Source: Bacteroides gallinarum DSM 18171 = JCM 13658 (lineage in GTDB: Bacteria > Bacteroidota > Bacteroidia > Bacteroidales > Bacteroidaceae). From it: a DNA stretch of 64,000 nt. The notes beneath the pieces were generated by a model, which was given only the letters and a program-made list of their open reading frames with translations, did not search any database and was not told the origin of the DNA. The DNA lies in contig NZ_KB894122.1 in the NCBI RefSeq assembly GCF_000374365.1, positions 1 to 64,000 of the forward strand, in the 5' to 3' direction. Shown in pieces: positions 7,456 through 27,929 of the stretch (within the stretch, counting starts at the first letter, position 1; each line of letters opens with the position of its first letter). A program made the position numbers and the translations under genes.

Positions 7456-7535
7456 AAAAATATATATGATTTATAAAACTATAGATAGTTATAAAGGAAC
7501 TGTATTTCACTCATCGGACGGTTATCAAGAGAACT

Positions 7536-9144: not shown

Positions 9145-9148
9145 TAAT

Positions 9149-9757
9149 TTAATTGTTACCGGTAAAATATTCCATTGTTGCCGAAGTCTCAGAACTGATG
9201 CCTTCTCTTATAAAAACTTTTTTTATTGTCAAAAAAATAATTTTCAAATCGAGTAAAAAAGAAGAATGGTCAACATACCACACATCCAATTCAAATTTCT
9301 TAGTCCATGATATAGCATTCCGTCCATTTACCTGTGCCCAGCCCGTAATACCCGGACGGACTTCATGCCTACGTGCTTGTTCTTTATTATACAGAGGAAG
9401 ATATTGAGGGAGCAAAGGACGTGGACCTATCAGCGACATATCCCCTCTCAAGACATTAATCAACTGGGGTAACTCATCAATGGAAGTTGAACGGACAAAC
9501 CTCCCTACTTTCGTCAGCCGTTGTGCATCAGGCAACAGATTACCGGCAGCATCCCGTTCATCCGTCATAGTCTTAAACTTGATCACCTTGAATATTTTCC
9601 CATTTTTGCCCGGCCGTTCCTGAGTAAAGAATGCTCCAGCACCTTTGTTGGCGAAATGGAGCCAAATAGTAACAAGTAGCAGTATCGGCCAAATCAAAGC
9701 CAATACGCATAACACGAGAATGAAATCAATCACCCTCTTAAAAAAATGAGAATACAT
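9149..9757 (-). CDS. Undecaprenyl-phosphate sugar phosphotransferase (PglC-like)
   Basis: A 202-residue monotopic phosphoglycosyl transferase of the small (PglC) type, which starts repeat-unit synthesis by moving a sugar-phosphate from a UDP-sugar to undecaprenyl phosphate at the inner membrane. Visible are one re-entrant membrane helix (about 8-34), the FKVIKFKTM segment, the catalytic Asp-Glu pair in [24 protein letters not shown], and [14 protein letters not shown]. The size matches PglC rather than the longer WbaP/WcaJ enzymes. Together with the aminotransferase at the operon end it suggests that an amino-deoxy sugar is the first residue. Confidence 0.93.
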
Positions 9758-9939
9758 GATTTAATAATTGATTAGACCTGCCAATTTCCTATATCTTCTA
9801 TTTTGAGGAAGCGAAACAATAAACGCCTCTATACCGCTCCTCTTTTTTCCTATAATAAATGATTTAATGATGCACTATATAGAACACTGCAAAGATGAAC
9901 AATATGATTTTACTCATAAAAAAAGAACTACTTCCATCT

Positions 9940-10115
9940 CATTCTCTCTGCCAACAATCCATCCATTTTTTGCTTAGAATCATTCGCCCCTTCTCACGAG
10001 CCATCCGCATATATTTTATGGCATCCACAAGAATATCATCACTCAAATAACCATGTTGCAAACTCTTTTCAGTTGCGAATAAACAAGATACTCTTGTTTC
10101 CACAATGACATGTTT
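9940..10115 (-). pseudogene. C-terminal gene remnant in the capsule operon
   Basis: An open minus-strand frame with no start codon encodes about 57 residues (containing SLQHGYLSDDILVDAIKYMR and KGRMILSKKWMDCW) and ends in a stop. It begins right behind the upstream glycosyltransferase and looks like the tail of a lost capsule gene, possibly a glycosyltransferase, though I cannot name it. The 180 bases between it and the phosphoglycosyl transferase hold nothing visible. Confidence 0.45.
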
Positions 10116-10125
10116 TTTTTAAAGT

Positions 10126-11286
10126 TTACGACAAAATGTCCTCCAACTTAGAGTATATGATGTCCTTGTCGAGCAACTCATCCACCAGCCTTTTATTATT
10201 CCGCTTCCACTCCTTATAATCAGCCCAGTGTTCCGAACATTGTAACAACACCTTGTCCAGTGTATTGTCTTTAAAATCGAAATTAAGCCCAACCTTATAT
10301 CGGTCAATCATATCGGCAGTCTCCCCCGGCAAAGAATTTAAGATAAAACAGTTTGCCGCTGCATAATCATTGAATTTATAACTATGCACAACTTTCGTAT
10401 TGTCACGAAAAATATTCACCGCAATATCGCAACACGACAGATATTTCAACAAATCTCCATATTTCAAAAAGCCTGTGATTTCAGCCTTTACAGAATACTT
10501 GTCAATAAGATTCTCTATTTCGGCACGGCATACCCCATCGCCTATAAAAAGAAGTTTGTACCGGTATTTCCCATTAAGGGCAGCCACTCCTTTTATCAAA
10601 GTTTCAAAATCATAACTTGTCCCCAAACTGCCTGCATACCCAATCCATAACTCGCCCGCAGGTTTGTCAAGAACCAGTTCGCTTTCCGCAATAAGTTTCT
10701 CCACCATCCTTTTATCAACTCCCAAATACAAAGGATGCACAAGAGCTTTTTCGTTGTAAAGAGCCGCTTCATTAGCATATCGTACCGACTCTCCCAATAT
10801 TGCATCCGCCATTTTATACGCCCGCACTGTAATGCACTTCCATGGAAAAACGACATATTTCAGCAACCGGCCTTTCATTCCGCCTACAATAGGCATCAAA
10901 GAATCCGGCCATAAGTCTATTACATCTATCACCAGCTTCACCCCGTGTTTCCTACAATATTTTCCACAAACATAAGCAGCCGTAGAAGCCGGCATGGCAC
11001 AATAAACCGTTGTCGGAATCTCCCGAAGCGAATTCAAATACTTCCTCAGCCTATAAGCGAAAACAAGATGGCTGTACAAACGTCTGACGGAAAGATTTTT
11101 CTTATAAGCAGGAACATGCAGGAAAGTACAATCCGGATGTTCCGCGTGTCCTTTGTAACGTTTGCACCTATGATTGAAATCCGATACTACCGCATGCGTA
11201 TCTAAATTCGGCGCATAGTGAAATATATTATATAACCGTGAATTGTCTGCGTTTATATCTCCGAAAAGCGAAACTAACAGTATCAT
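10126..11286 (-). CDS. Glycosyltransferase, GT4-like (GT-B fold)
   Basis: A 386-residue GT-B glycosyltransferase. The N-terminal acceptor domain includes VIDVIDLWPDSL. The C-terminal nucleotide-sugar domain has GYAGSLGTSYDFETLI, YKLLFIGDG and ITGFLKYGDLLKYLSCCDIAVN. The usual EGFG-like donor-binding glutamate motif is replaced by a segment around NTKVVHSYKFNDYAAAN, as in WbuB-type members. It would add one sugar of the capsule repeat at the cytoplasmic face. It lies 17 bases downstream of a GT2 gene in the same direction. Confidence 0.88.
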   Translation of the reverse strand: MILLVSLFGDINADNSRLYNIFHYAPNLDTHAVVSDFNHRCKRYKGHAEHPDCTFLHVPAYKKNLSVRRLYSHLVFAYRLRKYLNSLREIPTTVYCAMPASTAAYVCGKYCRKHGVKLVIDVIDLWPDSLMPIVGGMKGRLLKYVVFPWKCITVRAYKMADAILGESVRYANEAALYNEKALVHPLYLGVDKRMVEKLIAESELVLDKPAGELWIGYAGSLGTSYDFETLIKGVAALNGKYRYKLLFIGDGVCRAEIENLIDKYSVKAEITGFLKYGDLLKYLSCCDIAVNIFRDNTKVVHSYKFNDYAAANCFILNSLPGETADMIDRYKVGLNFDFKDNTLDKVLLQCSEHWADYKEWKRNNKRLVDELLDKDIIYSKLEDILS

Positions 11287-11303
11287 TTTTATTGTTTGTT
11301 ATA

Positions 11304-12005
11304 TTAAGAAAATTTCCGTTTTAATAATTCTATAAGGAAATGCCAGCGGTAGGCTATTCTATACGACCACTTCAAATGACTCTTCTCTCCGGAACACGAT
11401 GCATTGTCTCCATGCCTGCGATACCTAATCAATTTGTCGGGAATGAACTCCACGGAATAAAACGCCGAAGCGCAAATGCCCAGCCAGATATCGTGCATCG
11501 CCAGATTTCGGGGAAAAGGCAAAGCTTTGTTGAGAAGCTCTTTCCGGAAAGCCATGCAGCAGCCCAAGAAATTGTTACTAACGAGGTTAGCAATCACGCC
11601 TTTCGGGCGCGCCTTGCCGTGGCAAAACGAGTCACGCACCACCCGCATGCCCGCATCCACTACGCGGCAATCGCTGACCACCAACGTGCTGCCCTGCAAA
11701 TGCTTCATCATCACTTCCACTTTGCCGGGTTCCCACACGTCGTCCTGGTCGGAAAGGAAGATGTAATCTCCCTTCGCCATTTTCAACGCGTTCTCAAAGT
11801 TATAGACCGGCGATTTGAAGCGTTGGCAGGCATATATCTTTATGCGCCGGTCGCCGAATGCTTCAATCGCTTCTACCGTGTTGTCTGTCGACGAGTCATC
11901 GGAGACAATTACTTCATCCCCCCCTCCCAATTGCGGAAGAATGGAATCCAGTTGCTCTTTGATATATTTGCCACCGTTGTAAGTGGCGATACATACGGAA
12001 ATCAT
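11304..12005 (-). CDS. Glycosyltransferase family 2
   Basis: A 233-residue GT-A enzyme. It starts with ISVCIATYNGGKYIKEQLDSIL, has the nucleotide-binding VSDDSSTDNT, the DxD-type FLSDQDDVWEPGK (about 84-96), and the acceptor-site region MHDIWLG. Length and motifs match the short GT2 enzymes of polysaccharide loci, often rhamnosyl- or related transferases. It sits 12 bases after the preceding GT2 gene. Confidence 0.9.
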   Translation of the reverse strand: MISVCIATYNGGKYIKEQLDSILPQLGGGDEVIVSDDSSTDNTVEAIEAFGDRRIKIYACQRFKSPVYNFENALKMAKGDYIFLSDQDDVWEPGKVEVMMKHLQGSTLVVSDCRVVDAGMRVVRDSFCHGKARPKGVIANLVSNNFLGCCMAFRKELLNKALPFPRNLAMHDIWLGICASAFYSVEFIPDKLIRYRRHGDNASCSGEKSHLKWSYRIAYRWHFLIELLKRKFS

Positions 12006-12017
12006 AGAAAAAGTTGT

Positions 12018-12842
12018 TTATGACTTAGGGAATAAATAATGCTTCAGAAATTTTGCCGACCTGCACCGGAGCGTGAGCGATAAAGTCCTTTTGAGTAGTA
12101 TGATGACGATGGCTAATCTGCTTGCAAAGGAATCAGATTTATAGGCTTTCAGACTTTTGCAGAACAATTTATACCGTACAAACAATTTGTCCGAATCCGT
12201 TTCTTCATTTGAAAAATCCTGAATAAGTTTCCTGTCAATTAGATAAAATGATTTATACAGAACGCTCAGTCTGTCCACAAACTGGTAATCGGAATAATCA
12301 AGGAAAACCTTCTCATTATATCCGCCTGCTTTCTTCATGGCATTCACCTCAACGAACATGCCGCTGTTGATTATGCCTGCCGACTTCATGGGATATTCCC
12401 TGCCTGCCTGAAAAACGAATCTTGTCGGGATTTTCAACCTGAGGCGGACGGGAGACATACGGCATCCCGACGTAGTGACTACCTGAGGGACAAACAGCTT
12501 TATATGAGGCAGCTTTCCGGCTTTCTCGATGCACGCCTGTATGTAATCGCAACTGTCGAAAGTCGAATCCTGGTCCAAGAGCAAAAGGTATGTAAAACCG
12601 TTCTGGAGCGCAAAATCGGACGCACGGTTGTAGCCTGCGGAAACTCCGGGATTAGTCACGTCGGAGACATAGTGGATAAACGGATTGTGCCGAAAATCAT
12701 GTTCCGAATGTTCCGGACTGGGAGAGTTGTCATAAACATACAATTGGATGCCGTCGGACAACACGCCTTTCACCAAAGTAGAAAAAGCCGCAGCCTCCTG
12801 CAACTTTCTATTGAACAAGATTATAACGCAAAGAACTTTCAT
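12018..12842 (-). CDS. Glycosyltransferase family 2 (rhamnosyltransferase-like)
   Basis: A 274-residue GT2 protein with VYDNSPS near the start, GVSAGYNRASDFAL and the DxD-type LLLLDQDSTFD (about 90-100). The second half contains INSGMFVEVNAMKKAGGYNEKVFLDYSDYQF, typical of the dTDP-rhamnosyl transferase branch. It overlaps the polymerase gene by 35 bases, implying coupled translation. The donor sugar is a guess from the family. Confidence 0.88.
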   Translation of the reverse strand: MKVLCVIILFNRKLQEAAAFSTLVKGVLSDGIQLYVYDNSPSPEHSEHDFRHNPFIHYVSDVTNPGVSAGYNRASDFALQNGFTYLLLLDQDSTFDSCDYIQACIEKAGKLPHIKLFVPQVVTTSGCRMSPVRLRLKIPTRFVFQAGREYPMKSAGIINSGMFVEVNAMKKAGGYNEKVFLDYSDYQFVDRLSVLYKSFYLIDRKLIQDFSNEETDSDKLFVRYKLFCKSLKAYKSDSFASRLAIVIILLKRTLSLTLRCRSAKFLKHYLFPKS

Positions 12843-13971
12843 TTAACCGGGATAACTTATTGGAAACGACAAAAGAGAGCAATACAAAACTCATCCCAAT
12901 CGGATTGATAAGAAAAGGATTGAACAGCGATTGGACATAGACACACACCGCCCCTATCATAAAAAGGGATGCCGTTTGTTTATACTCTGTCGGCGTGCGC
13001 TTATAGTCAGCATAAATTTTCCAAAGCAGCAAGCCCCAGAACGACAGTCCGAGGATGCCTTGCTTATGAAAAATCTCAAGGATAGAATTTTCCATGTGTA
13101 TATCTCTTACCGGCACTCCATACCCGAACCCATGCCCGAACAGAAACGAAAAAGGGGTGATTCGCTCAATAACCTGCAGGGCTGTCAGCATCCGCAATTC
13201 GTCGCCGCCTGTCCTGTCCTCGCCTACATCGAACAATCCCAGCTGCAAGGTTACGAAAAGCAACAACAAGCAGAGCAGAAACAAGGAAGCGGCGGTGGAT
13301 GGCTTCATCTTATGGCGCGTGACATACAGCAGTAGTATGGCAAGCAAGGTGATTACATAAAACCCTCTTGTCTGGGTATAATAAATAGCCAGCAAATGCA
13401 AAAGGGAGAAAAGCCATTTCTTCTCATTCATCCAGAAAAGGAGGCCAATCGTCAGGTACAGGAAGCCTTTATAGAATAATTCCCCTTCATCTCCCCTGAA
13501 CATAAAGTCGCTTTCTTCCTCCATCATGACATAAAAAATATTGAAGTCTATCACCTTCAAATATTTTATAAGCACAATATATACCAGATAGGCTACCGAC
13601 ATGAACAGAGACGACCACTTGATTATGGAGCATACATTCTGAATCACCTTTTTGTCGCTTACCATGAAATAGATAAACGGGAGCGTAAGGAAAAACGACA
13701 GCTGCTTTATATCTGCGAACAAATTCTCCTGATTATTGGATATCAAGCAAAAAGAGAGCGCCACCATAGTGGTAAACAGATAAAACATCAGCATATTTCC
13801 TGCATACTGTCCTATACGCCGGTTTATGATTAATGGCACGGTCAGACCGATTGCTATCAGAAAATTGAACATACGCAATGTCAGTCCGCCCGCCACGTGA
13901 ATCACCTGCCCGCTGCCACAAAGCAACAACTCTGCAATGAAAAAATAAAAGAACAGTCTTATACTTTTCAT
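12808..13971 (-). CDS. wzy: O-antigen/capsule polymerase (Wzy-like)
   Basis: A 387-residue polytopic membrane protein with about ten hydrophobic helices and a large loop before FLFGHGFGYGVPVRDIHMENSILEIFHKQGILGLSFW, the pattern of O-antigen ligase/polymerase (Wzy_C) proteins. It would join lipid-linked repeat units in the periplasm. It is the first gene downstream of the antisense VirE island. No good TAnnTTTG box was found directly upstream, so its transcription may depend on read-through from the invertible promoter or on an unrecognised promoter. Confidence 0.82.
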   Translation of the reverse strand: MKSIRLFFYFFIAELLLCGSGQVIHVAGGLTLRMFNFLIAIGLTVPLIINRRIGQYAGNMLMFYLFTTMVALSFCLISNNQENLFADIKQLSFFLTLPFIYFMVSDKKVIQNVCSIIKWSSLFMSVAYLVYIVLIKYLKVIDFNIFYVMMEEESDFMFRGDEGELFYKGFLYLTIGLLFWMNEKKWLFSLLHLLAIYYTQTRGFYVITLLAILLLYVTRHKMKPSTAASLFLLCLLLLFVTLQLGLFDVGEDRTGGDELRMLTALQVIERITPFSFLFGHGFGYGVPVRDIHMENSILEIFHKQGILGLSFWGLLLWKIYADYKRTPTEYKQTASLFMIGAVCVYVQSLFNPFLINPIGMSFVLLSFVVSNKLSRLNESSLRYNLVQ

Positions 13972-14547: not shown

Positions 14548-16501
14548 ATGGAAAACTACCCCATAAGTCTTTTCAAAGGCTATTCAGACACACATCCCAC
14601 AGACTCCACCTTGCAGGCGGTGGTAGGCATGCTGCGCGACGACCGCGCCGTAGCCGAACACACCGAGAAGCACCGCTACTACCTGCAACACGGGCAGAGC
14701 GCGGCGGCCGCCCGCGAAAAGTCGTCGTGCCCCTGCTTTGCCGTGGCGGTGCGCTTCAGCGGCGGCAAGCAGCGGCGGCACATCTGCGCCTGGACGGGAC
14801 TCTGCCCCGTGGACATCGATCACGTGCCCGCCAACCGGATGGAGCATTGCCTCGAGCTGATACGCGCCGACCGCCACACCCTGCTTCAATACGTCACCAT
14901 CAGCGGCAGCGGCATACAGCTGCTGTGCCGCTACGCTGGACTGACCGACGACCACGACCTGCGCCTGCATGCGCGCGCCTTTGCCGCCATCAACGCCCAC
15001 TATGCCCGCCTTACAGGGCTGGAGTGCGACCTGAAGTGCAAGAACGCCACCCGCCTGAGCGGGCTGGCGCACGACGAACGGTTTTTCTTCCGTCCCGACG
15101 CCGATCCGTTCGACCTGTCCGGCTCCGCCGCCCCCGCCGCTGCCCGGGCGCGCAAGCAGACTTCCGCCGACAAGCTGCGCCGCCGCCTGCTGCGGGTGAC
15201 GGAGGCCGTGGCCCGCCAGCTGGCGGACGAGGGGGTGGAGTATGCCGCGCACCACCGCAACGAGTACATCATGCGCACGGGCTATCTGCTCAATGCCTAC
15301 GGCGTGGCGCAGGCCGCGGCCACCGAATGGGCTGCGGAGCGTTTTGCCGACTACGACGGCAACGTGCCAGCCATCTTCGCCTCCTGCTACCTCAACACCG
15401 CTGAGCACGGCACCCGCACCCTGCCGTCGCGACAGAAAAACGCCGCAGGCGACGGGGGGCGACCGGAGTTCCTGGCATCGGTGGCGGAAATAGAAGAGTT
15501 TCTGAGCACGCAGGGGGCTTTCCGTAAGAACACCGTCACGGGCAAGTGCGAGGCACTGCCTGCCGACAGCCCCGACGGGAAGTACGAGGAACTGACGGAC
15601 CGCTACGTCAACACCCTTTGGTGCCGCATGTGCAAGGAAGTGAAGCCGGCGGCGGCGCACATACGCGCCGTGCTCGACTCCGAGTTCATTCCCCTGTTCA
15701 ACCCCTTCGAAGCGTATTTCCGCAACCTCCCGCCCTGGGACGGCGTCACCGACCACATAGCCCTGCTCGCCTCGCACGTGCACGTGCGCAACAACGCCAT
15801 CTCCTTCGCCCACTACTTCAAGAAGTGGCTGGTGGGCATGGCGGCCGCGCTGCTCGACGAGGACGTGGTGAACCACGAGATACTGGTGCTCACCGGCCGC
15901 CAGGGCATCTACAAGACCACCTGGCTGAACAACCTGCTGGCGCCCGAGCTGCGCCGCTACTTCTACCTGAAGAGCAACGCGCGCCGCATCACCAAGGACG
16001 ACCTGCTCACCCTCTCCGAGTTTGCCATCGTCTGCTTGGAAGAGCTGGACGAGATGGAGACGCAGGAGGTGAACCAGATAAAGGCGCTCACCACCATGAA
16101 GACCGTGAATGAGCGCGCCGCCTACGCCCACTACAAGGAGCACCGCCGGCACATTGCCAGTTTTTGCGGCACCAGCAACAACACCCACTTCCTGACCGAC
16201 CCCACCGGAAACCGCCGCTGGCTGCCCTTCGAGGTGGAGAGCATCGACAGTCCTTACGATTTCCCGGTGGACTATGCGGGCGTCTACTCGCAAGTCTACG
16301 CCTTGCTGCAGAGCGGCTACCACTACTGGCTGGAAGGCGATGAACCGGAAGCGCTGAACCGGCACAACAAGCATTTCGCTGAGCCAAGCGGGTTTCGAGC
16401 CAGTCCGCGCCGGGGGCAAACGGGGCTACCGGCTGGTGGAGCTTACCGGCGACGAGATACGGGAGAACCAGTATGCCATGGGGCGGTACACGGGTAATTG
16501 A
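14548..16501 (+). pseudogene. VirE-type P-loop protein (BT4734-like N-terminus), C-terminus frameshifted
   Basis: The frame codes 649 residues to 16497. The N-terminal part (about 60-210, with DIDHVP and SGSGIQLLCRY) matches the BT4734/BF3469 domain, a primase-like fold. The C-terminal part (about 380-640) is a VirE/DUF3987-like ATPase with Walker A GRQGIYKTTWLNN, Walker B-like CLEELDEME and TNNTHFLTDPTGNRRWLPFEV. After NRHNKHFAEPS (about 16385) the protein leaves the family's usual sequence. The expected ending (GFEPVRAGGKRGYRLVELTG and onward) is present in another frame, ending at 16501, so an out-of-frame deletion seems to have removed part of the C-terminus. The core ATPase motifs are intact. 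Base composition is much more GC-rich than the capsule genes on both sides. It heads a Bacteroides module of VirE, DUF4248, HU-like, smalltalk and amidase genes whose role is unknown. Confidence 0.8.
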
Positions 16502-16553
16502 TAATCTTTTCAATTGACAATTGACAGTTGACAATTAACAATTAAAGAGCCAT

Positions 16554-16612
16554 GTTCCGCTCCGTAAAGTGCCACTTTACGATGCTAAAGTGGCACTCTA
16601 CGGAACGGAAAC
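16554..16612. terminator. Strong hairpin between convergent genes
   Basis: The outer arms GTTCCG.TCCGTA and the inner AGTGCCACTTTA with its complement form a stem of about 25 bp around 16554-16612. It lies between the end of the VirE-like gene and the end of the DUF4248 gene, where a bidirectional terminator is expected. Just before it (16511-16545) short TTGACAA/TTAACAA repeats occur. Confidence 0.65.
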
Positions 16613-16620
16613 ACCTGTCT

Positions 16621-16863
16621 CTACTTGTCATCGGCTTCCACCGAAAAAGGCTCGCCCAGCGCGTTGTAGATGAGCTGCACCTGCGCCGGAGTGTACGTCC
16701 GCACCTTGTCCGAGGGGACCAGGGCGCGCAGCTCGCCGCGCAGCGTGGGGTGGAAATCAATCCACTGGTTCAGTTTGCGGAAAGCCGCCTGCGGGCAGAG
16801 TCCCGGGCAATAGATCTGGGCGAGTTCCGTCCGCCCGTAAGTACGTATTTCAAAGTGTTTCAT
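16621..16863 (-). CDS. DUF4248 domain protein
   Basis: An 80-residue protein beginning MKHFEIRTYGRTELAQIYCPG, with AAFRKLNQWIDFHPTLRGEL and a C-terminal YTPAQVQLIYNALGEP. This matches the DUF4248 family that regularly sits in this Bacteroides module, divergent from the HU-like gene. The fold looks like a small helix-turn-helix protein (FRKLNQWI helix). A DNA-binding or regulatory role is inference only. A TAnnTTTG box lies 30 bases upstream. Confidence 0.8.
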   Translation of the reverse strand: MKHFEIRTYGRTELAQIYCPGLCPQAAFRKLNQWIDFHPTLRGELRALVPSDKVRTYTPAQVQLIYNALGEPFSVEADDK

Positions 16864-16892
16864 ATCCTTGGCATTAGCGTTTCTCTTTCTCG

Positions 16893-16900
16893 CAAATATA
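16893..16900 (-). promoter_or_regulatory. -7 box of the DUF4248 gene
   Basis: TATATTTG on the minus strand, 30 bases before the DUF4248 start, matching TAnnTTTG. Confidence 0.5.
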
Positions 16901-16940
16901 CCGAAAATTCTTCACATACTGGCATCCCGGAACAACAATA

Positions 16941-16990
16941 ACGAACGGAAACGAACCATAACGAACCGTAACCTACCGTAACGCACAAAC
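16941..16990. repeat. Five tandem 10-bp repeats between divergent promoters
   Basis: Consecutive decamers ACGAACGGAA, ACGAACCATA, ACGAACCGTA, ACCTACCGTA and ACGCACAAAC lie exactly between the -7 boxes of the DUF4248 and HU-like genes. The 10-bp period keeps the same DNA face exposed, as expected of a cooperative operator. It begins 41 bases from one -7 box and ends 17 bases from the other. Confidence 0.6.
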
Positions 16991-17007
16991 CGCGCCGGAG
17001 CATGCCG

Positions 17008-17015
17008 TATCTTTG
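17008..17015 (+). promoter_or_regulatory. -7 box of the HU-like gene
   Basis: TATCTTTG matches TAnnTTTG, 58 bases before the start of the HU-like gene and right after the decamer array. Confidence 0.55.
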
Positions 17016-17073
17016 CTTCGTGATCACAAAGAGAACCTAAAAACCAAAATTCAAAACTTAAAACTTAAACATC

Positions 17074-17520
17074 ATGATTCGTTACAAAAAGTATCAGTTT
17101 ACCGGAGAGAACCATCCGCTTAAGGGGCTGTGGTATGCCCGTCCCATGATAGACGAAACCTACGACACCGCACGACTGGCGCAGCACATGGCAAACCATA
17201 ACACGCCCTACTCCGCCGGGCTTATCAAGGGCGTGCTGACCGACATGATAGCTTGCATCAAAGAGCTTATTCTCGACGGCAAGAACGTGAAGCTGGACGA
17301 CCTCGCCATCTTCTCCGTGGGCATCGTCAGCAAGAAGGGCGCCGCATCGGCGGACGAGTTCACCGTGGCGGACAACGTGAAGGGGCTGAGACTCCGCGCA
17401 CGCGCCACCGGCGAGCTGAGCAACACTCAAATCAATCTGGACGGCCGCCTGAAAGAGGCTGCCAAGTACAGCGTAGAAGGCGGCTCCACGGGCGGCGACG
17501 AAGAAGAAGATCCGCTGTAG
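17074..17520 (+). CDS. HU-like DNA-binding protein (HU-HIG type)
   Basis: A 148-residue relative of HU/IHF with the Bacteroides-specific arrangement: an extended N-terminus (YKKYQFTGENHPLKGLWYARPM), helices around AQHMANHNTPYSAGLIKGVLTDMIACIKELILDGKNVKLDDLAIFSVGI, a beta-arm, and an acidic Gly/Glu tail (GGDEEEDPL). It would bend or coat DNA in the cytoplasm. It opens the right half of the module (HU-like, smalltalk, amidase, same strand) and is preceded by its own promoter and the decamer array. Confidence 0.88.
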   Translation: MIRYKKYQFTGENHPLKGLWYARPMIDETYDTARLAQHMANHNTPYSAGLIKGVLTDMIACIKELILDGKNVKLDDLAIFSVGIVSKKGAASADEFTVADNVKGLRLRARATGELSNTQINLDGRLKEAAKYSVEGGSTGGDEEEDPL

Positions 17521-17522
17521 CA

Positions 17523-17604
17523 ATAATCAGTGATTAGTGATGAATGATTAATGATTAATCACTCATCATTAATCACTAATCATTCATCACTAATCGCTGA
17601 TTAT
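17523..17604. repeat. 82-bp near-perfect palindrome
   Basis: Arms of about 39 bases built from ATTAGTGATGAATGATTA-like units are reverse complements at 37 of 39 positions. It separates the HU-like gene from the smalltalk gene. Similar GATTAATGA hairpins occur at 55105-55188, so it looks like a common intergenic stem-loop that could attenuate transcription. Confidence 0.7.
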
Positions 17605-17643
17605 CAGTTTATTATTTTTTTTACCATTAAAATCAAAATCCTT

Positions 17644-17751
17644 ATGAACACAAAATCAAAATCAGTCTTGGGGATTATCCTCAAAAGCATCGTGGTGGTG
17701 GCTACCGCACTGGCAAGCGTATTCGGTTTCACATCCTGCACAGGCCGATGA
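17644..17751 (+). CDS. Smalltalk protein
   Basis: A 35-residue peptide starting MNTKSKSVLGIILKSIVVV, with a single hydrophobic helix (about 9-30) and a basic N-terminus. I recognise it as the small membrane peptide named 'smalltalk protein' in Bacteroides annotations, always just upstream of an N-acetylmuramoyl-L-alanine amidase. The stop overlaps the amidase start by four bases (ATGA). The pairing with a lysozyme-like amidase resembles a holin-endolysin arrangement, but that role is speculation. Confidence 0.8.
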   Translation: MNTKSKSVLGIILKSIVVVATALASVFGFTSCTGR

Positions 17752-18161
17752 GAACCGTCACCCTTATCGTCGTTCACTGCTCGGCCACGCCTCGGGGCGT
17801 GGACCTGAGCTTCGAGGAGTGCCGCCGCGACCACATCTTCCATCGCGGCTTCCGCGACATCGGCTGCCATTTCTACCTGACGCGCGACGGCGAAATCCAC
17901 TGCGGCCGTCCGTTGGACGAAACCGGCGCACATTGCCGGGGGCACAATCGCCACTCCGTGGGCGTCTGCTACGAGGGCGGACTCACCGCCGACCGCCGCC
18001 CCGCCGACACCCGCACGCCGGAGCAGAAAGCCTCGCTCGTGGCGCTGCTGCGCGAGCTGAAGCGGCTGTTCCCGCAAGCGCTGATAGTGGGCCACCGCGA
18101 CCTGAACCCGATGAAAGAATGCCCCTGTTTCAACGCCGTGGCAGAGTATCGGGGCCTGTAA
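17748..18161 (+). CDS. N-acetylmuramoyl-L-alanine amidase (amidase_2, T7 lysozyme-like)
   Basis: A 137-residue zinc amidase that cuts the lactyl-amide bond between MurNAc and the peptide. Zinc and catalytic residues are visible: HCSATPRG (His about 10), GCHFYLTRDGEIHCGRP, HCRGHNRHSVGVCYEGG (His about 64), and GHRDLNPMKECPCFN (His and Cys ligands about 119-128). No signal peptide is seen, so export would need help, possibly from the overlapping smalltalk peptide. It is the last gene of the GC-rich module. Confidence 0.9.
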   Translation: MRTVTLIVVHCSATPRGVDLSFEECRRDHIFHRGFRDIGCHFYLTRDGEIHCGRPLDETGAHCRGHNRHSVGVCYEGGLTADRRPADTRTPEQKASLVALLRELKRLFPQALIVGHRDLNPMKECPCFNAVAEYRGL

Positions 18162-18182
18162 AGCCCGCAGACTGCCATCCCG

Positions 18183-18262
18183 CCTGCCCCATGCAACAGC
18201 CAGACATTCCTTTTCCTCACCCGACAAGGGATGCTCCGCCGCTGCGCTCTGCAAGGGGCAGG
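18183..18262. terminator. Hairpin between convergent amidase and glycosyltransferase
   Basis: CCTGCCCC at 18183-18190 pairs with GGGGCAGG at 18255-18262, directly at the ends of the two converging genes. The inside carries a degenerate copy of the AGAGCGCAGCG-type repeat seen at 22833-22920. Confidence 0.5.
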
Positions 18263-19405
18263 TTATTTTAATATTTCAGCAACCAGCAACCGGAAATCCT
18301 GCTCCTGCCTTTTGCTGACTACATCATAACGTTCTCCGCTTTTCAACCGATAGTGATGGTAGTTGGCATCCAGATATTTCATCTTACAAAACAAATCGTT
18401 TTCATAAAACGGCGAGAAATAAACGGCGGCATTCCCTAATACTTCGGGCATCGAACACACATTCGAGGCAAGTACCGGCGTAGAATATTTTATCGCTTCC
18501 ACCGGGGGATAGCCAAACCCCTCCGCCAGCGAAGGATAGACTAAAGCCCAAGCCTGCTTATACAGATGCTCGACATCAGAATTGGACACATAATTCAGAC
18601 AAACGACGTTATCCTCTTTTATATCTTTCCTTAACCCTGTAACAACCAGATACATATCAGGAAAAGCATGCCTTATCTTTACGAAACTCTTGCGCAGTAT
18701 ATCGAAATTCTTATTCGCCCTGCCGGCACTCAACAACAGCAGAAACCGTTTCCGTTCCTGAAATAAACGCTTCAACAGCACATTCTCCACCTCCGGACTG
18801 CAAAAATAGTTTTTCACCGGAGGATACAACACCTTTATCTCCTTTCCCGACAATTCCGGAAAGAAATAGAAAAGGGAATCTTTCGTATAAGAAGAAACGG
18901 TTATAAGCGAAACGTTGTCATTCACCCAAAAAGCTCTCAGGCTGTCATAAAGCCCCATTATCCGGTTGGCGGTGGCATATCTGCCATTTTTCCAAAAATA
19001 GTCTATTCCAATTTTCACAAAATCTTTCCAGCTATGGTGATACAAGAAGTGAATGCGGTTTTCGGCGATCTCTATATTCCCTATGTCATGAACCGTACAG
19101 ACAACCCTGCACCGTATCCCCGACAAATCATAATTTATGTATCGCTGTGCGATTCCGATGAAAAACGTGTCCACGTTATAAGTTTCCACCATTTCCAACA
19201 GTGTTTTCGACTGTATATCCGAGAGGACATACCGGGCGGAGAAAACCGCATAATCATCATCCAGGAATTTCAAGCGGGAGTCGTACACCCCGACAATCTT
19301 CACGTCAGTCCGGGCTGACAAGTCGGCAAGCACTTTCCTTACATATTCTTCCCCGCCATTATGGTAGTCTTGCAGAGAAATGAAATCGAACAATATAGTC
19401 ATCAT
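18263..19405 (-). CDS. Glycosyltransferase, GT4 family
   Basis: A 380-residue GT-B glycosyltransferase. The donor domain shows LLLLSAGRANKNFDILRKSF, YLVVTGLRKDIKEDNVVCLNYVSNSDVEHLYKQA and the EGFGYPPVEAI motif with its glutamates (about 310-325). It would add a sugar of the capsule repeat. It is the last gene before the antisense island that splits the locus. Confidence 0.9.
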   Translation of the reverse strand: MMTILFDFISLQDYHNGGEEYVRKVLADLSARTDVKIVGVYDSRLKFLDDDYAVFSARYVLSDIQSKTLLEMVETYNVDTFFIGIAQRYINYDLSGIRCRVVCTVHDIGNIEIAENRIHFLYHHSWKDFVKIGIDYFWKNGRYATANRIMGLYDSLRAFWVNDNVSLITVSSYTKDSLFYFFPELSGKEIKVLYPPVKNYFCSPEVENVLLKRLFQERKRFLLLLSAGRANKNFDILRKSFVKIRHAFPDMYLVVTGLRKDIKEDNVVCLNYVSNSDVEHLYKQAWALVYPSLAEGFGYPPVEAIKYSTPVLASNVCSMPEVLGNAAVYFSPFYENDLFCKMKYLDANYHHYRLKSGERYDVVSKRQEQDFRLLVAEILK

Positions 19406-19451
19406 ATCCTATTTTAATAATGATAAGCAACTTATCAAAAAAAAACACGAC

Positions 19452-20576
19452 CTATTTCGAACATTGGACAAGAACATTGAGAAACTTCATAGCTTGCTGT
19501 GTAATATCATATTTAGCCTTGAATATATCCGAAATTTTCTTCAATTGTTCATCCGTTGGATAATTGTTCAAAACTTCTTCTATTTTACTTTTCAGCGCAA
19601 TAGCATCTAAAGCGGGTTCATAATAGTTCAACAGCCCCATAGTGACTTCAGGCAAAGCTGTTTCTTTAGTACAAATAACCGGTGTCCCGCAAATAGCCGC
19701 CTCAATCGGAGTATAGCCAAAGCCTTCGTGTAAAGAAGGAGATATAAAAATGTCTGCCGACTGATACAAACGTATAATATCTTCATCAGAGACATAATGG
19801 GAAAGGTGCACAACACGGTTTTCCACACCATGCTCTTTTATCATTGGCAGTACCGCATTCTCCCAATAAGGAGTAGACTTCCCAACAATTACCAACTTAT
19901 GAGGTATCTTATCTTTCAATTCTATAAAAGATTTTACTAACGTACCTACATTTTTGTATTCAAACAAAGTGCTGACATACAATAAATATTTACAATCCAG
20001 ATCCTTTTGAAAACTGTCTGTAACTCTTTGCACTGCTACTCCATTGTGGACAACCGAAATTTTTTCAGCAGAAATAAACGGATAGGTTTTCAATATATCT
20101 TGCTTCACAAACTCTGTTATTGCGATTATCCTATCCGAATGTTTCAGTAGTTTAGGAATCAAAAAACGAAATAATAACCTCATCCTTCCTCTCCAAACCC
20201 TCAATGGTTGAAGATCGTGAACTACCTGCACCCTATAGAGTCTGATTCTTCTGTAAGAAGAACTGTCCAATGCCAAAGATACATATATATCACAGTCAAA
20301 CTGTTCGTCCACTATCTTCCTCCATTCTCGCCCCACTATAAACCAACTATACCTAAAAAGCGCCGCAACACTATTGTTATACGTATAGGGTTTAAAAACT
20401 ACATATTCAAAATTCGGAAATTCAGTTTGAATAATCTGTTCCGCTTCTTCTTTTATCAGAAGACGTATTTTTACATCACCTATATCTGCATCTCTCCACG
20501 ACTTCAAGATACGCAAAGCATATACCCAGATGCTTGTCCCCCGACCACAAGGTGTCATATCTAACAATATCTTCAT
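19452..20576 (-). CDS. Glycosyltransferase, GT4 family
   Basis: A 374-residue GT-B enzyme, similar in plan to the next gene in the operon: LLDMTPCGRGTSIWVYAL at the start, VVHDLQPLRVWRGRMRLL in the acceptor domain, then LLYVSTLFEYKNVGTLVKSF, LSHYVSDEDIIRLYQSADIFISPSLHEGFGYTPIEAAICGTPVI with the donor-binding EGFG. It starts 6 bases after the flippase stop, within the capsule operon. Confidence 0.9.
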   Translation of the reverse strand: MKILLDMTPCGRGTSIWVYALRILKSWRDADIGDVKIRLLIKEEAEQIIQTEFPNFEYVVFKPYTYNNSVAALFRYSWFIVGREWRKIVDEQFDCDIYVSLALDSSSYRRIRLYRVQVVHDLQPLRVWRGRMRLLFRFLIPKLLKHSDRIIAITEFVKQDILKTYPFISAEKISVVHNGVAVQRVTDSFQKDLDCKYLLYVSTLFEYKNVGTLVKSFIELKDKIPHKLVIVGKSTPYWENAVLPMIKEHGVENRVVHLSHYVSDEDIIRLYQSADIFISPSLHEGFGYTPIEAAICGTPVICTKETALPEVTMGLLNYYEPALDAIALKSKIEEVLNNYPTDEQLKKISDIFKAKYDITQQAMKFLNVLVQCSK

Positions 20577-20582
20577 AAACTA

Positions 20583-22127
20583 CTATTTTATACGTGTAAA
20601 TACCAAAATTCTGTTTACTCCTCTCCTCATCGGACTACTCACGCCACACAGTATAAGCAGAAATATCACGCTGAAAATCACTACTGATACAATAGCATAA
20701 AGGGTAAGTATCTGACAATCGTCACCTATATTTGCCTTCATAAAAGAATAACCTGTCAAGCAAATCCATACAGCCGCCACTCCGGCAACAAAGCATTTAA
20801 AATAAAGTCTCCAGTAATGGAACACGGAAATATTAAATCCCCAATGATACAGAAAATACGGTTTCCACAAAAAGATTATCAGCAACAGACTCAAAAGCAC
20901 GCCTGCCAATATGCCCGGCAATCCCCATATAGAACCAAACCATACAGAACAGCTGATATTAATACACGCCTCTACAACTGTTGCCCATACATCCTGAAAA
21001 AGTCCATATGCACTATTGAATGAATCGACAATATTGCGCACCAAATCTACGAAAAGAATAGCGGTAATCAATAATAAAGTGGTATGATCCAACAAGTATG
21101 ACCCACCAATCCACAAAGAGATAAAGGGACCAGCCAGCATATAATATCCAAAGCATACCACAGTTACTATGTAGAAACGAAGAGAAAAAAGTTCATTGAA
21201 GACAGAAACGGTACGTTCTTTATTATTTTCAGCCACCAAATTGCCAATACCCGCATTTATGCTATTGAATATGGCACTTATCAACATTTGAAGACCGGTA
21301 GCAATCAGCATATAATTGCCATAAACAGCCACTAATGAAAGAGAAGCATACGCATATATAATAATAAAACCGGACTGGGTAAACGCAAAACTACCTATTT
21401 TGTGAAAAAAAATCTGTTTGATTTTCTTGATAATCTCCGTATGCTTTTTACGAAGTTGTCCGCCCAATCGAACTTGCGGACACAACCAAGGATACTCCCG
21501 ATGCAACACATAATTGATAATAACCGTAGTGGCTATAGCCATCAGAAACTCAAGCACCAGCCAATACACATAGCCGTTTGCCAAACAAGTTATGGCTGCT
21601 ATCTGAACAAGCACTTTTATAACTTTGACACCTTGTATATTCAGAGTGATTTTATATTCTTTCTGGTCCGCAGTCAGTACAATCTGTTTGTAATTGAAGA
21701 AATACCCCAACAAAGCACTGAACAGCAACACGATGAACGAGCCGTAGGTGTACCACATGGGCACTTCCGCTTTCTCGAAGATGAGCGGGAAGAAGCACAT
21801 CAGCACGCAAGCGCCGGCTATGACGATATAAGCCACCCGCCGATAGAGCCACCCCTGCACGGAGACAATCTCGTTGATGGCTTGCGTGTCACTCTCGAAA
21901 ATCGGTTTGTAGAGGGTAAAAGCGACGGCGCCGCCAATGCCCAGCTCTGCCAGATTCAGAAAGCCGATAAGGTTCTGCGCAGTGGTGTTCAGTCCGAGCA
22001 CTTCAGCCCCCAAATAGTCGAGAAAGACTTTGCGGGAGAAGAACTGGAGGACTAAATTAATGAAATAAAAGGCAAGGGCTACCTTGGCATTTTTGATGCT
22101 TTTGGCAGTCCGGGAGAGTTCAGACAT
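20583..22127 (-). CDS. wzx: Polysaccharide flippase (Wzx-like)
   Basis: A 514-residue MOP-superfamily exporter with about 14 hydrophobic segments and the N-terminal KNAKVALAFYFINLVLQFFSRKVFLDYLGAEVLGLNTTAQNLIGFLNLAELGIGGAV typical of Bacteroides capsule flippases. It would turn lipid-linked repeat units across the inner membrane before polymerisation by the Wzy-like protein. It is the first biosynthetic gene after the regulatory leader genes. Confidence 0.9.
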   Translation of the reverse strand: MSELSRTAKSIKNAKVALAFYFINLVLQFFSRKVFLDYLGAEVLGLNTTAQNLIGFLNLAELGIGGAVAFTLYKPIFESDTQAINEIVSVQGWLYRRVAYIVIAGACVLMCFFPLIFEKAEVPMWYTYGSFIVLLFSALLGYFFNYKQIVLTADQKEYKITLNIQGVKVIKVLVQIAAITCLANGYVYWLVLEFLMAIATTVIINYVLHREYPWLCPQVRLGGQLRKKHTEIIKKIKQIFFHKIGSFAFTQSGFIIIYAYASLSLVAVYGNYMLIATGLQMLISAIFNSINAGIGNLVAENNKERTVSVFNELFSLRFYIVTVVCFGYYMLAGPFISLWIGGSYLLDHTTLLLITAILFVDLVRNIVDSFNSAYGLFQDVWATVVEACINISCSVWFGSIWGLPGILAGVLLSLLLIIFLWKPYFLYHWGFNISVFHYWRLYFKCFVAGVAAVWICLTGYSFMKANIGDDCQILTLYAIVSVVIFSVIFLLILCGVSSPMRRGVNRILVFTRIK

Positions 22128-22970: not shown

Positions 22971-23300
22971 TTATTTATACCGACTCAATTGTTCGGAAAT
23001 AATTCTACGGATGGTTTCCGGTGATTGGCGCGAGTCGCATATTGAAACAATATAAATCGTGTCTTGCTCAATCACATAATAAATAAGATTAGGAGTATTA
23101 ACCAAGTATCGGACCTCCCTATTCGCTGTTGAAAAGGTTATGTCGCGTACTCCTATTCGCGGAAATGAGGATAATAACCCGACATGCAATTGTATTCTTT
23201 CGGCAACCTTAGTGGATATGGCGTTACCAAACAAATCTTTTACGCTTCTCAGAATAGTCAGAAAATCATCAGTTGCAACAGGAGACCAAATTATTTCCAT
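22971..23300 (-). CDS. RelE/ParE-family toxin
   Basis: A 109-residue protein beginning EIIWSPVATDDFLTILRSV, the usual ParE/RelE opening (W-x-x-x-A), followed by a helix pair, GLLSSFPRIGVRD, REVRYLVNTPNLIYYVIEQDTIYIVSICDSRQSPE. The fold predicts an mRNA-cleaving or gyrase-blocking toxin; the ParE/RelE branch cannot be decided. It overlaps the antitoxin by 10 bases. The pair lies between upxZ and the flippase in the capsule operon, in the same direction. Confidence 0.85.
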   Translation of the reverse strand: MEIIWSPVATDDFLTILRSVKDLFGNAISTKVAERIQLHVGLLSSFPRIGVRDITFSTANREVRYLVNTPNLIYYVIEQDTIYIVSICDSRQSPETIRRIISEQLSRYK

Positions 23301-23614: not shown

Positions 23615-24103
23615 TTACTCATCTACGTATTCCCACGGATAAGGGTTATCCACCGCATTCCGGAATTCCTCGACAGCTTCCTTCTGCTCGGCTGTGAGCG
23701 ATGCGGCGTCCCAAGAGGCAATAATCGCACGGGCAGCATCCGCCAAAGGCTCGTCGTAGACCTCGCCATAGCAGGCGGTGAGCAGACGGAGTTTCAAGAG
23801 CGAAGCGGGAAGGGCTTCGAGAATATCCCAACAGCGGTCCAGCACTTCCTGAATGTGTCCCTGCTTTTCGCCATGGTCTATGAACGAAGCATTATAACCC
23901 ATCAGAAGAGCAAGGCAGACATTGGCCTGTTCTTCGACGGTAGCGCCGCGGGCACCGGAGCTATACAAAGCTGTGGTCAAGCGATAGACCTCGCCGTTGC
24001 GACGGGAAAGGTCGTCACTGTAGACGGGACTGCCGTCCATACCCAGATACATCAGGTCGTGCGCAGCACGCTGAAGGGTAAGAGTTTCTTCGGAAAGAGA
24101 CAT
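23615..24103 (-). CDS. upxZ: UpxZ-family inhibitor of capsule antitermination
   Basis: A 162-residue protein with AAHDLMYLGMDGSPVYSDDLSRRN, CLALLMGYNAS and LPASLLKLRLLTACYGEVYDEPLADAARAIIASW, the recognisable UpxZ pattern. In B. fragilis, UpxZ proteins block the UpxY proteins of other capsule loci, so that mainly one capsule is made per cell. It follows upxY by 49 bases, the standard order in these loci. Confidence 0.92.
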   Translation of the reverse strand: MSLSEETLTLQRAAHDLMYLGMDGSPVYSDDLSRRNGEVYRLTTALYSSGARGATVEEQANVCLALLMGYNASFIDHGEKQGHIQEVLDRCWDILEALPASLLKLRLLTACYGEVYDEPLADAARAIIASWDAASLTAEQKEAVEEFRNAVDNPYPWEYVDE

Positions 24104-24152: not shown

Positions 24153-24692
24153 TTATGGGTTGATTACTTCTATCAGGTCCGGATGGATGGTAGCCATGGC
24201 AACGGCTATGACACCCTGAATTTCGATGACAACACGACGGTCGCGCGCTCCTTTCACCTTCACAAAGACGCCTTCCTGTCCTTCGAAGTCGCCGCCTGTG
24301 ATGCGCACCTTGGTGCCTTTGGACAGGTTCAACTCTTCGGGTTGAAAATAGAGGAGTTGGTCACTGTAAGTACCCACTACGGCAATGAAACGCCGCATCT
24401 GGACATCGGGAACAATAATCTTCTGCCCGCTACGGGTATCGGTGATGTACTGCAAATAAGTAACTTTCGACTTTACACGTTTCAAATCCGAAGGACAGGC
24501 ATGGACAAAAATCAGATTGTGGATGACAGGAACCAGCATGCGGACTTTCTTACCCCGCTTGACCGTCACCTTATATTGCATGGGAACGAAGCAGTCCAAC
24601 TGTTCCTTCTCAAGCAAGCGTACAGCGTCCGGCTCCCTGCGGTATGTGGCACGCATGGCATACCATAATTCGGTTTCTTTCGCTGTTTCCAT
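24153..24692 (-). CDS. upxY: UpxY-family transcription antiterminator (NusG paralogue)
   Basis: A 179-residue NusG-like protein. The NGN domain (about 8-105) opens with LWYAMRATYRREPDAVRLLEKEQLDCFVPM, and a KOW domain follows (LSKGTKVRITGGDFEGQEGVFVKVKGARDRRVVIEI). UpxY proteins bind elongating polymerase and prevent premature stops in the leader of their own capsule operon. The start at 24692 gives the normal N-terminus. About 210 bases of untranslated leader separate it from the promoter in the invertible segment. Confidence 0.95.
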   Translation of the reverse strand: METAKETELWYAMRATYRREPDAVRLLEKEQLDCFVPMQYKVTVKRGKKVRMLVPVIHNLIFVHACPSDLKRVKSKVTYLQYITDTRSGQKIIVPDVQMRRFIAVVGTYSDQLLYFQPEELNLSKGTKVRITGGDFEGQEGVFVKVKGARDRRVVIEIQGVIAVAMATIHPDLIEVINP

Positions 24693-24877
24693 CTATATGC
24701 CGGTTCGGAAAAGAATATTCTCCTGGGGCTTTGAAATCCTTGTATACACTTGAATTTCAATCATTTGCAGACACCTTATACAGAATACGGCAAGTTTTGT
24801 GCCCCTCTTGCCTATGTTTTTTCCGTAGTTGTACACTATTAAACTGATAAACTACTGTAAACAAACGTGTTATAACA

Positions 24878-25107
24878 GAAAAGCGTTTTTTAGACGTTCG
24901 TTTAATGTGCACAAAGATACATGCTATTTTTGATATGTGCAAAATGTTCGATAAAAATATGTTCTATCATACTCGTAAATACTTGTGTATTAAATGACTA
25001 TCTCTATTTATAGAACTGGTTATCACCCTTGTTTTTGTCTAAAATCGTCCGCTTCTTACATGAATTATCTTGACGTTTTTTAAACGAACGTTTAAAAAAC
25101 ACTTTTC
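24878..25107. promoter_or_regulatory. Invertible capsule promoter segment with 28-bp inverted repeats
   Basis: The 28-base repeat at 24878-24905 recurs as its reverse complement at 25080-25107 with two mismatches. Each copy holds a perfect match to ARACGTWCGT (AGACGTTCGT at 24892-24901; AAACGTTCGT on the minus strand at 25093-25084), the core reported for promoter inversion by the Mpi serine recombinase in B. fragilis. The 174 bases between carry the upxY promoter. No invertase gene is in the window, so it acts in trans. Confidence 0.88.
24912..24943 (-). promoter_or_regulatory. upxY/capsule promoter, in the ON orientation
   Basis: On the minus strand TTTG (24943-24940) and TATCTTTG (24919-24912) are 20 bases apart, a close match to the Bacteroides -33/-7 promoter. 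The box lies inside the invertible segment next to the proximal repeat and points to upxY. Inversion would turn it away. Confidence 0.8.
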
Positions 25108-25186
25108 TTCACTATATATAAGCCTTTGATTTTCCGGAACTTACTGCAATAATTTTCAAAGCAATATCCGGAAGCATGCACAGGGC

Positions 25187-25871: not shown

Positions 25872-27929
25872 ATGGCACTGATAAATTGTAGTGAATGCGG
25901 AAACCAGATGTCCGACAAAGCTCAAAGTTGTCCAAAATGTGGTGCGCCCAATCCCAATGCATCTATGCGGATTCCGATGGGATTTTCCTTTAATCCATGC
26001 GCTTGGCATAGCGATGCACCTGCTGTATCGTCTTGCGTTACTTGTGGAAAAGCGATGTGTAAAAAATGTGTAGATTCAGCACCTTTTACATTAGACAATA
26101 AGCCGCAATGTAATGAATGTAGTTTGCAGATGTTAGCAGAGAACATAGCGGCCAATAAAAAAACGAAAGTCTGGTCTATTGTCAAACTTATATTCCTGTT
26201 GTTTTTCATGTCTATCGGACTTATGATGTATTTGTCAAATCCAAATGACATCATGAATGCGTGGATTTATGCAGGTCTTGGCGGACTTCCCTCGGCATTG
26301 AAAACCTTTGTGACCCGTTCAGCAGAAGAAAAATGGGCAGATGAAGCCATGTCCCGTGTAAATCCGAGTGAAGGATGTTTCCAACAAATGGTTGCTTTCA
26401 TCATCAAAATAATCTTTGCTTTTGTTTTCGCTCCGGTTGCTGCCATTTGGTTTACGATAAAGAACAGTATCGCTATCGCAAAATCCAGTCGTGCTATCAA
26501 GGCAGACCAAGAAGATTACGATACGATTCAGTCACGTATGCAAGAAATGGAACATCCTAACGAAGAACTTGCCACATATATCGGACAAGAGCCACAAATG
26601 GCAAGTCAGACTTCTGCCTATGCTCCAGTTCTACCGGAAATTCCAGTACAACAAGTCAGCCCTGATCAGATATCAACTGATGTAATACATGCACAACCCG
26701 CCCACACTTCTCAAACTCCCCCAGTTACATCGTCTTATCAAACACCGACATCACCAAAACGAAACAATGCTTTGGTTATTGGTATTGCTATAGGTGCGTT
26801 AGCACTTGTCGGGCTTATAGCCGGATATTTTATATGTTATGTTCCATATGCCAAAGACAGAGATGCGCTGCGCACCTACGTAGTTGCCAATAATGTATTT
26901 CTACGTTCGTCAAAAGTGGCGGGTGTAGAATATAATGTTTTGTCGAAAGTTCCTTACGGTTCCGAACTGATTACTTATTCAAAAGATTCGGAATGGGCAG
27001 AAATCAAGGTAAATGGTGTGGAAGGGTTTGTTGCCTCTCCATATTTGCTTGAATGGAATGATTTCAAATTGCTTAATGATGTATGGGGTAGCGCGGACAC
27101 GAAGGAGTATATCGAATCTTCCAAATGCCGCCTTGCAATACTCGACTACTGTAAACGCAATCTGTTTACTACAGGGAATGATGGTTGGCAGCTTTACACA
27201 TTGCAGAAGAATGTAAAGCCGAACAATGTTTTGTATCCTCGTTTAAACAACGGTTACGATAAGTTTACCGAATTTGCTTTTATCCTTAAAAACAACGCCA
27301 CGCAAGAACGACGGTTCGCCCTCTATTCTTTCGATGAAGAAACCGAAAAACCCATATTCCTATATGAGGAAAGTGCACCGGCAGAAGGCGAGATTAAGAA
27401 TGTGAGATACATCAATAGGAAAAATCAATATTATGTGACTTATACGGGAGGCAATATCATTTCCGCCACGAAGGAAACAAGTGTCCGGAGTAAAGTCAAA
27501 GAGCTAGCTCCTCCACCGCCGGAACAAGAAATATCGACGATAAAATATGTTCCTCCCGTCATAACAACCGAAGAGGTAAAGGTAGATAAAAAAGAGAACA
27601 TTGCGGACAACACCATTTATGAAACGGTGGAACAAATGCCAGAATTTCCTAATGGCGGAACAACCGGTCTGATGAATTTTATCGGCAAGAACTTAAGATA
27701 CCCCACCTATTGCAAAGAGGAAGGCATACAGGGTAGAGTGATTGTGGTATTTGTGGTAAACAAAGACGGCAGCACAAGCGATTTTAAAGTTGTATGGAGC
27801 GCGAATAAACATTTGGACAAAGAAGCGTTACGGGTATTGAGCGGTATGCCCAAATGGAAACCCGGAAAACAAAACGGAGTGCCCGTAAGAGTCAAGTGCA
27901 CTATTCCCATCAATTTTAAACTTTCATGA
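25872..27929 (+). CDS. Zinc-ribbon membrane protein with SH3-like and TonB C-terminal domains
   Basis: A 685-residue mosaic. An N-terminal zinc ribbon (CSECGNQMSDKAQSCPKCG, 7-25) is followed by a B-box-like cluster (CAWH..C..CGKAMCKKCVD..C..C, about 42-82), two hydrophobic stretches (about 98-118 and 172-200), a Pro/Gln/Thr-rich linker, another membrane helix (about 296-322), an SH3-like domain with VFLRSSKV and GYVA-like turns (about 335-385), and a C-terminal TonB-type domain (MPEFPNGGTTGLMNFIGKNLRYP to GVPVRVKCTIPINF, about 595-685). The layout suggests a cytoplasmic zinc sensor joined to a periplasmic, cell-wall- or TonB-box-interacting end. It overlaps the L,D-transpeptidase gene by four bases, linking it to peptidoglycan. 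Function otherwise unknown. Confidence 0.82.
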   Translation: MALINCSECGNQMSDKAQSCPKCGAPNPNASMRIPMGFSFNPCAWHSDAPAVSSCVTCGKAMCKKCVDSAPFTLDNKPQCNECSLQMLAENIAANKKTKVWSIVKLIFLLFFMSIGLMMYLSNPNDIMNAWIYAGLGGLPSALKTFVTRSAEEKWADEAMSRVNPSEGCFQQMVAFIIKIIFAFVFAPVAAIWFTIKNSIAIAKSSRAIKADQEDYDTIQSRMQEMEHPNEELATYIGQEPQMASQTSAYAPVLPEIPVQQVSPDQISTDVIHAQPAHTSQTPPVTSSYQTPTSPKRNNALVIGIAIGALALVGLIAGYFICYVPYAKDRDALRTYVVANNVFLRSSKVAGVEYNVLSKVPYGSELITYSKDSEWAEIKVNGVEGFVASPYLLEWNDFKLLNDVWGSADTKEYIESSKCRLAILDYCKRNLFTTGNDGWQLYTLQKNVKPNNVLYPRLNNGYDKFTEFAFILKNNATQERRFALYSFDEETEKPIFLYEESAPAEGEIKNVRYINRKNQYYVTYTGGNIISATKETSVRSKVKELAPPPPEQEISTIKYVPPVITTEEVKVDKKENIADNTIYETVEQMPEFPNGGTTGLMNFIGKNLRYPTYCKEEGIQGRVIVVFVVNKDGSTSDFKVVWSANKHLDKEALRVLSGMPKWKPGKQNGVPVRVKCTIPINFKLS

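Follow-up and report, generated by a model that had tools for sequence, protein, structure and literature searches.

The capsule locus described here very likely carries a phase-variable switch, in which a promoter segment in front of upxY would be flipped by an Mpi-family serine recombinase encoded on another contig. The locus belongs to the first 64,000 nucleotides of a Bacteroides gallinarum contig (C8), and this whole stretch is hereafter designated as the window. As judged from sequence, the recombinase would act on two inverted sites and the segment of about 174 nt between them would flip. With the promoter toward upxY, transcription would start at the upxY-side arm of the repeat and proceed into upxY, upxZ, and the capsule genes; in the flipped segment, the promoter would point away and the locus would be off. 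UpxY would enable RNA polymerase to continue along the operon that encodes it, and UpxZ would restrain other capsule loci, the two proteins being described as an antiterminator and a cross-locus inhibitor, respectively (PMC12632263). The switch probably moves in this strain.

The switch region is built on an inverted repeat with two arms of 29 nt each, 93% complementary and spaced by 174 nt, and comprises the following features:

24877-24905, plus strand: upxY-side arm of the inverted repeat, complementary to the distal arm at 27 of 29 positions
25080-25108, minus strand: distal arm of the inverted repeat, partner of 24877-24905
24892-24901, plus strand: recombinase core AGACGTTCGT, an exact ARACGTWCGT
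25084-25093, minus strand: recombinase core AAACGTTCGT, an exact ARACGTWCGT
24906-25079, no strand: segment expected to invert; the homologous segment of locus L152 is inverted, with both flanks direct
24912-24943, minus strand: promoter TTTG-N20-TATCTTTG pointing at upxY (ON), from pattern scan and alignment
24693-24876, minus strand: leader from the repeat to upxY, its repeat-side end aligned directly in six loci with either segment orientation

The original prediction had placed two 28-bp repeats 174 bp apart; the spacing was correct, but the length fell one base short at each outer end. Its other claims for this region, namely an exact ARACGTWCGT in each repeat, a full promoter inside the repeats facing upxY, and an ON orientation in the assembly, were all borne out. 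The two exact cores, one per arm, are in inverted orientation to each other, and a pair of cores spaced by 150-220 nt was found once in the window versus none in 200 Markov-simulated windows. Full Bacteroides promoters were scanned as TTTG-N18-22-TAnnTTTG, TTTG being the -33 element of Bacteroides promoters, and this form was found once in the region and seven times across the 64-kb window. TAnnTTTG is the -7 consensus stated for Bacteroides promoters (PMC4747536). Six bases lie between the -7 box and the upxY-side arm, and the upxY start codon is about 220 bases away from the box; from this position, transcription would be expected to start at about 24905, at the edge of that arm. Since the promoter lies inside the repeats and is aimed at upxY and upxZ, the assembled orientation corresponds to ON. 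A general sigma-70 scan returned 3 sites versus 3.8 in shuffles, and the terminator scan run with it found none. Downstream of the repeat, the leader is conserved at about 24850-24885 (minus strand), a stretch that ends with GTTTTCAGC in four of the six aligned loci and with GTTTACAG in the window. Indifferent to segment orientation, it is possibly part of a UpxY-responsive leader.

The genes on either side of the repeat are as follows:

25872-27929, plus strand: divergent gene with a zinc ribbon, SH3 domain, and TonB C-terminus
24153-24692, minus strand: upxY, NusG-like antiterminator of the capsule locus (NF033644, 174.4 bits, cut-off 100)
23615-24103, minus strand: upxZ, inhibitor of other UpxY proteins (PF06603, 157.4 bits)
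17604-22127, minus strand: capsule block 1, from profile matches and ORFs
20583-22127, minus strand: flippase-like gene of block 1 (weak, below cut-off)
19452-20576 and 18263-19405, minus strand: glycosyltransferases of block 1
17604-18254, minus strand: ORF of block 1 without family assignment
6211-13971, minus strand: capsule block 2, from profile matches and ORFs
12808-13971, minus strand: polymerase-like gene (below the Pfam cut-off)
12018-12842, minus strand: ORF of block 2 without family assignment
11304-12005, minus strand: glycosyltransferase
10126-11286, minus strand: glycosyltransferase, just under cut-off
9149-9757, minus strand: sugar transferase
8167-9144, minus strand: ATP-grasp protein
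7536-8198, minus strand: HAD protein
6211-7455, minus strand: DegT aminotransferase

The closest relatives of this UpxY in a collection of named genomes are from Bacteroides species. The textbook gene order claimed for the locus holds for upxY and upxZ, which come first, and for the biosynthesis genes, which follow on the same strand, but this order is interrupted twice. The first interruption is a ParE-like toxin gene (22971-23300, minus strand) located after upxZ and ahead of the flippase-like gene; the second is an opposite-strand cassette (14548-17520, plus strand) with VapE-like, unassigned, and HU-HIG genes, which splits the capsule biosynthesis genes.

Comparative evidence of inversion comes from relatives, whose homologous capsule promoters appear to occur in both orientations. 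In L152, a locus of another genome of the genus (G138), the flanks match the window on the plus strand (24844-24905, 77%; 25080-25167, 81%; each alignment includes an arm), and for the sequence between the repeats (24880-25106) the match is on the minus strand (77%). The L152 promoter faces away from its upxY and the locus is thus OFF; since its UpxY is only 43% identical to that of the window and the species is another one, L152 is taken as a homologous promoter, maybe not a strict orthologue. A similar situation was found between two B. muris loci (L067 and L068), the segment being inverted (95%) between direct flanks (94% and 90%), with one locus OFF and the other ON. Of 20 site pairs taken from four genomes, tblastn connected 14, including L152, with upxY (five at only 29-31% identity), and these 14 divided into 6 ON and 8 OFF. 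The window segment scored better in the same direction in all six ON loci and inverted in seven of the eight OFF loci, the exception being L147 (OFF) with nearly equal scores (11.5 versus 10.5). As pairs with two exact cores were present in only 7 of 44 UpxY relatives, these 44 were surveyed with relaxed settings, a pair being accepted when its arms were alike at 14-23 of 27 positions and a -7 box stood beside one arm. With each assembly giving one state per locus, the 22 accepted pairs comprised 21 OFF and 1 ON; one of the 22 (L064) has a -7 box only, without a full promoter. No pair was found by this survey in 20 of the 44 relatives, five of which had less than 400 bases of upstream sequence, and two candidates flagged as ON (L072 and L073) were rejected, their arms being alike at only 9-10 of 27 positions.

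These loci also bear on the idea of a two-way selector, in which the flipped promoter would drive the divergent gene at 25872. Beyond the distal arm it is the next gene, and it is oriented away from the repeat, as is the nearest listed far-side ORF in L152. However, it begins about 760 nt past the distal arm, far-side neighbours differ between homologous loci, and in L146 and L149 (UpxY 91% identical) the nearest listed far-side ORF points toward the repeat, so that an OFF promoter could not drive it. We regard such a selector as highly improbable at the window locus.

The enzyme that would operate a simple ON/OFF switch was searched for in the complete set of 102 contigs (4.92 Mb, 99.8% complete). 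That the window encodes no invertase, as originally stated, agrees with the lack of any PF00239 serine recombinase on contig C8, which carries it, with the nuance that a recombinase of another family is present: a tyrosine recombinase gene at 1451-2671 (plus strand), 22 kb from the repeats, with Arm-DNA-bind_5 and SAM-like domains and a PF00589 match at 2195-2623. The serine resolvase domain (PF00239) was matched at seven places in the genome, and the search for an mpi-like serine recombinase, proposed together with the original prediction, found an Mpi homologue, whose absence would have counted against that prediction, on contig C23, identified with the NCBIfam profile for the "master DNA invertase Mpi family":

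C23:27555-28145 (L109:7556-8146): Mpi-family serine recombinase gene, intact, 196 aa (NF009949, 290-292 bits, cut-off 272)

Its product has Y6, R8, S10, and the RLSR motif, which have roles in serine recombinases, and is 86% identical to its counterpart in B. fluxus, 84% in B. cutis and B. muris, and 78-79% in two B. fragilis genomes; an Mpi match was detected in 12 of the 14 named-record genomes searched. A Tpx-like gene comes after mpi in all nine best relatives, with a gene for a DUF308-like membrane protein in between in eight of them, and both occur in this genome; the two B. fragilis genomes share these downstream neighbours. In B. fragilis L168 and L169, a 341-aa ORF, tyrosine recombinase-like by eye, lies head-to-head with mpi, as described for B. 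fragilis mpi and a tyrosine recombinase gene (PMC4747536). Based on this arrangement, L168 and L169 very probably represent the characterised mpi locus, and the C23 gene its orthologue.

The genomic surroundings of the C23 gene have features of their own. It directly follows, on the same strand, ORFs that by eye are UDP-sugar dehydrogenase-, glycosyltransferase-, aminotransferase-, and sugar transferase-like, and the contig also carries a upxY gene at 8329. The aminotransferase-like ORF before mpi is shared with B. muris L163 and not with the other eight relatives examined. The notion that mpi is expressed only as the tail of these polysaccharide genes was weakened by the roughly 60 bases immediately preceding mpi, which are partly conserved in five aligned relatives, most of them with different upstream genes. 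A second Mpi-like gene (C3:37191-37778) scores 242 bits, below cut-off, and has an internal stop codon, genes with similar scores being intact in G021, G131, and G138. With this gene and the other resolvase-family genes of the genome as further candidates, we infer that it is the C23 enzyme that recombines the window repeats.

The distribution of sites across the genus points to the same family. The pair pattern CGTTCGTTT-N162-192-AAACGAACG, searched in 149 genomes of the genus including this one, gave 109 pairs in 28 genomes, and the reversed-pattern control gave 10 pairs, one in each of 10 genomes. Mpi-family matches above cut-off occurred in 48 of the 149, with 26 of 28 pair-bearing genomes versus 22 of 121 without pairs (Fisher p 9e-14, uncorrected for shared ancestry and taking no account of incomplete genomes or Mpi-like paralogues). 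The two pair-bearing genomes without such a match were G002, with a score of 263.6 bits, and G148, which is 60% complete and not among the matches listed.

Further copies of the repeat, another point raised by the original prediction, do exist elsewhere in the genome. The bare 10-base core ARACGTWCGT gave no signal alone (45 genome matches versus 48 for the reversed control) and, not being rare, was replaced by pairing or by a 21-mer site. Allowing up to 3 mismatches, this 21-mer had 12 matches in the whole genome, some of them one site read on the other strand, versus 1 for the reversed control. It marks C8 (the window), C9, C19, and two places on C21, with complete pairs on the first three and a broken pair on C21. 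Eight upxY genes were found above cut-off, of which C8:24171 and the following gene have complete Mpi-type pairs:

C19:38587-39084, minus strand: upxY of the C19 capsule, with a complete pair and a promoter facing away (OFF)

For a third upxY (C21:85056), half of a pair is present at a contig end, and a search of 1.5 kb around the upxY genes on C43, C13, and C23 (8329) detected no such repeat. Of the two C21 half-sites (C21:61421-61441 and C21:85876-85901; L107 and L108), one precedes a stretch of N and the other is located where the contig ends. In L148 and L151, lipB and upxY flank one single pair, and on C21 the half-sites probably represent both arms of a single invertible promoter located between these two genes; the sequence past the gap seems to have been scaffolded in the wrong orientation. 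In viral contigs scanned for the site pair, 4 stretches were detected, none with a TAnnTTTG box inside.

Could the window repeats be a relic locked ON, persisting in a lineage that has lost recombination? The single orientation in this assembly is in line with such a view, but both cores are exact in arms that have kept their complementarity, the Mpi-family gene is intact with its motifs in place, the C19 locus of the same genome is OFF, and C21 is broken at exactly such a site, as mixed orientations would presumably do in a short-read assembly. A relic is thus very hard to credit, even slightly more so than the selector.

The two remaining upxY loci, C8:126453 and C2:35555, have unrelated inverted repeats of 14-18 nt, 178-192 nt apart (e.g., CCTCTGTACAAGAGGT and CATCTCTTAGCAAGAGAT), with a tyrosine recombinase match no more than about 1.3 kb away, and may represent capsule switches of a second kind in this genome. 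These loci, together with the 49 PF00589 matches of the genome, one of them in the window, would favour inversion of the window segment by another recombinase, such as a tyrosine recombinase, but their repeats lack ARACGTWCGT whereas the window has the Mpi core, the window repeats have no PF00239 or PF00589 match next to them, and site pairs track Mpi-family genes across the genus, which makes this reading as improbable as a relic.

Besides capsule promoters, a pair of Mpi-type sites was found on C9 (C9:11536-11736; L105:5537-5737) between divergent glycosyltransferase clusters, flanked by a GT11 gene on the left and a GT90-like gene on the right, whose starts are about 22 and 29 nt from the 21-mer sites. 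The -7 box faces right in this genome and in G131, whose locus (L143) is 88% identical over 7 kb and has the same orientation; in G021 (L157) it faces left. With the strict promoter pattern, the C9 copy gave no full -33 box. With sites so close to both divergent start codons, each inversion would switch one sugar-transfer operon off and the other on. Tentatively, and with somewhat more doubt than confidence, we suggest that the Mpi-type enzyme of capsule promoters may also run a two-way selector at C9; if true, one enzyme would shuffle the capsule state and a second surface glycan. No report of a two-way glycosyltransferase switch in Bacteroides was found in the titles and abstract openings searched.

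At the window locus, cells of this strain probably differ in their capsule, and such variation can be of consequence for phage sensitivity, immune recognition, and strain typing. The value added here is a list of sites and enzyme in one genome, with one single enzyme gene that can be removed as a test of the switch.

The locus closely resembles the Mpi-controlled capsule promoters of B. fragilis (Coyne et al. 2003, as described in PMC4747536 and PMC12632263) in its repeat core, a promoter enclosed by the repeats, upxY followed by upxZ at the head of the locus, and a distant Mpi-family serine recombinase. The exact string ARACGTWCGT was not found in the literature searched. In contrast to B. 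fragilis as described there, the window repeats outside the core are its own, and the C23 mpi has no tyrosine recombinase gene beside it (no PF00589 match on C23) and is preceded by polysaccharide-type genes. In B. intestinalis APC919/174, capsule promoters in invertible segments of 183-186 bp, similar in length to the 174 nt of the window, are reported to be flanked by GTTCGTTTAA, which overlaps the Mpi repeat ARACGTTCGTN; transcription starts in the proximal repeat, and five capsule loci with this repeat and at least two Mpi homologues are described (PMC8375218). The window shares the perfect GTTCGTTTAA inverted repeat beside a promoter, Mpi homologues in the genome, and capsule operons; orientations were measured by reads and expression by RNA-seq in B. 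intestinalis, whereas switching of the window is deduced. The upxY genes reported near invertons in a defined gut community (PMC11892184) are another parallel, with an invertible Bacteroides promoter placed so that a flip can drive upxY; that study surveys a defined community not shown to include this genome. Since repeat, promoter, upxY/upxZ order, and enzyme match the published B. fragilis and B. intestinalis systems, the arrangement is an already published one, with nothing new as a type of system, and the window locus fits the known Mpi-type switch in every testable respect.
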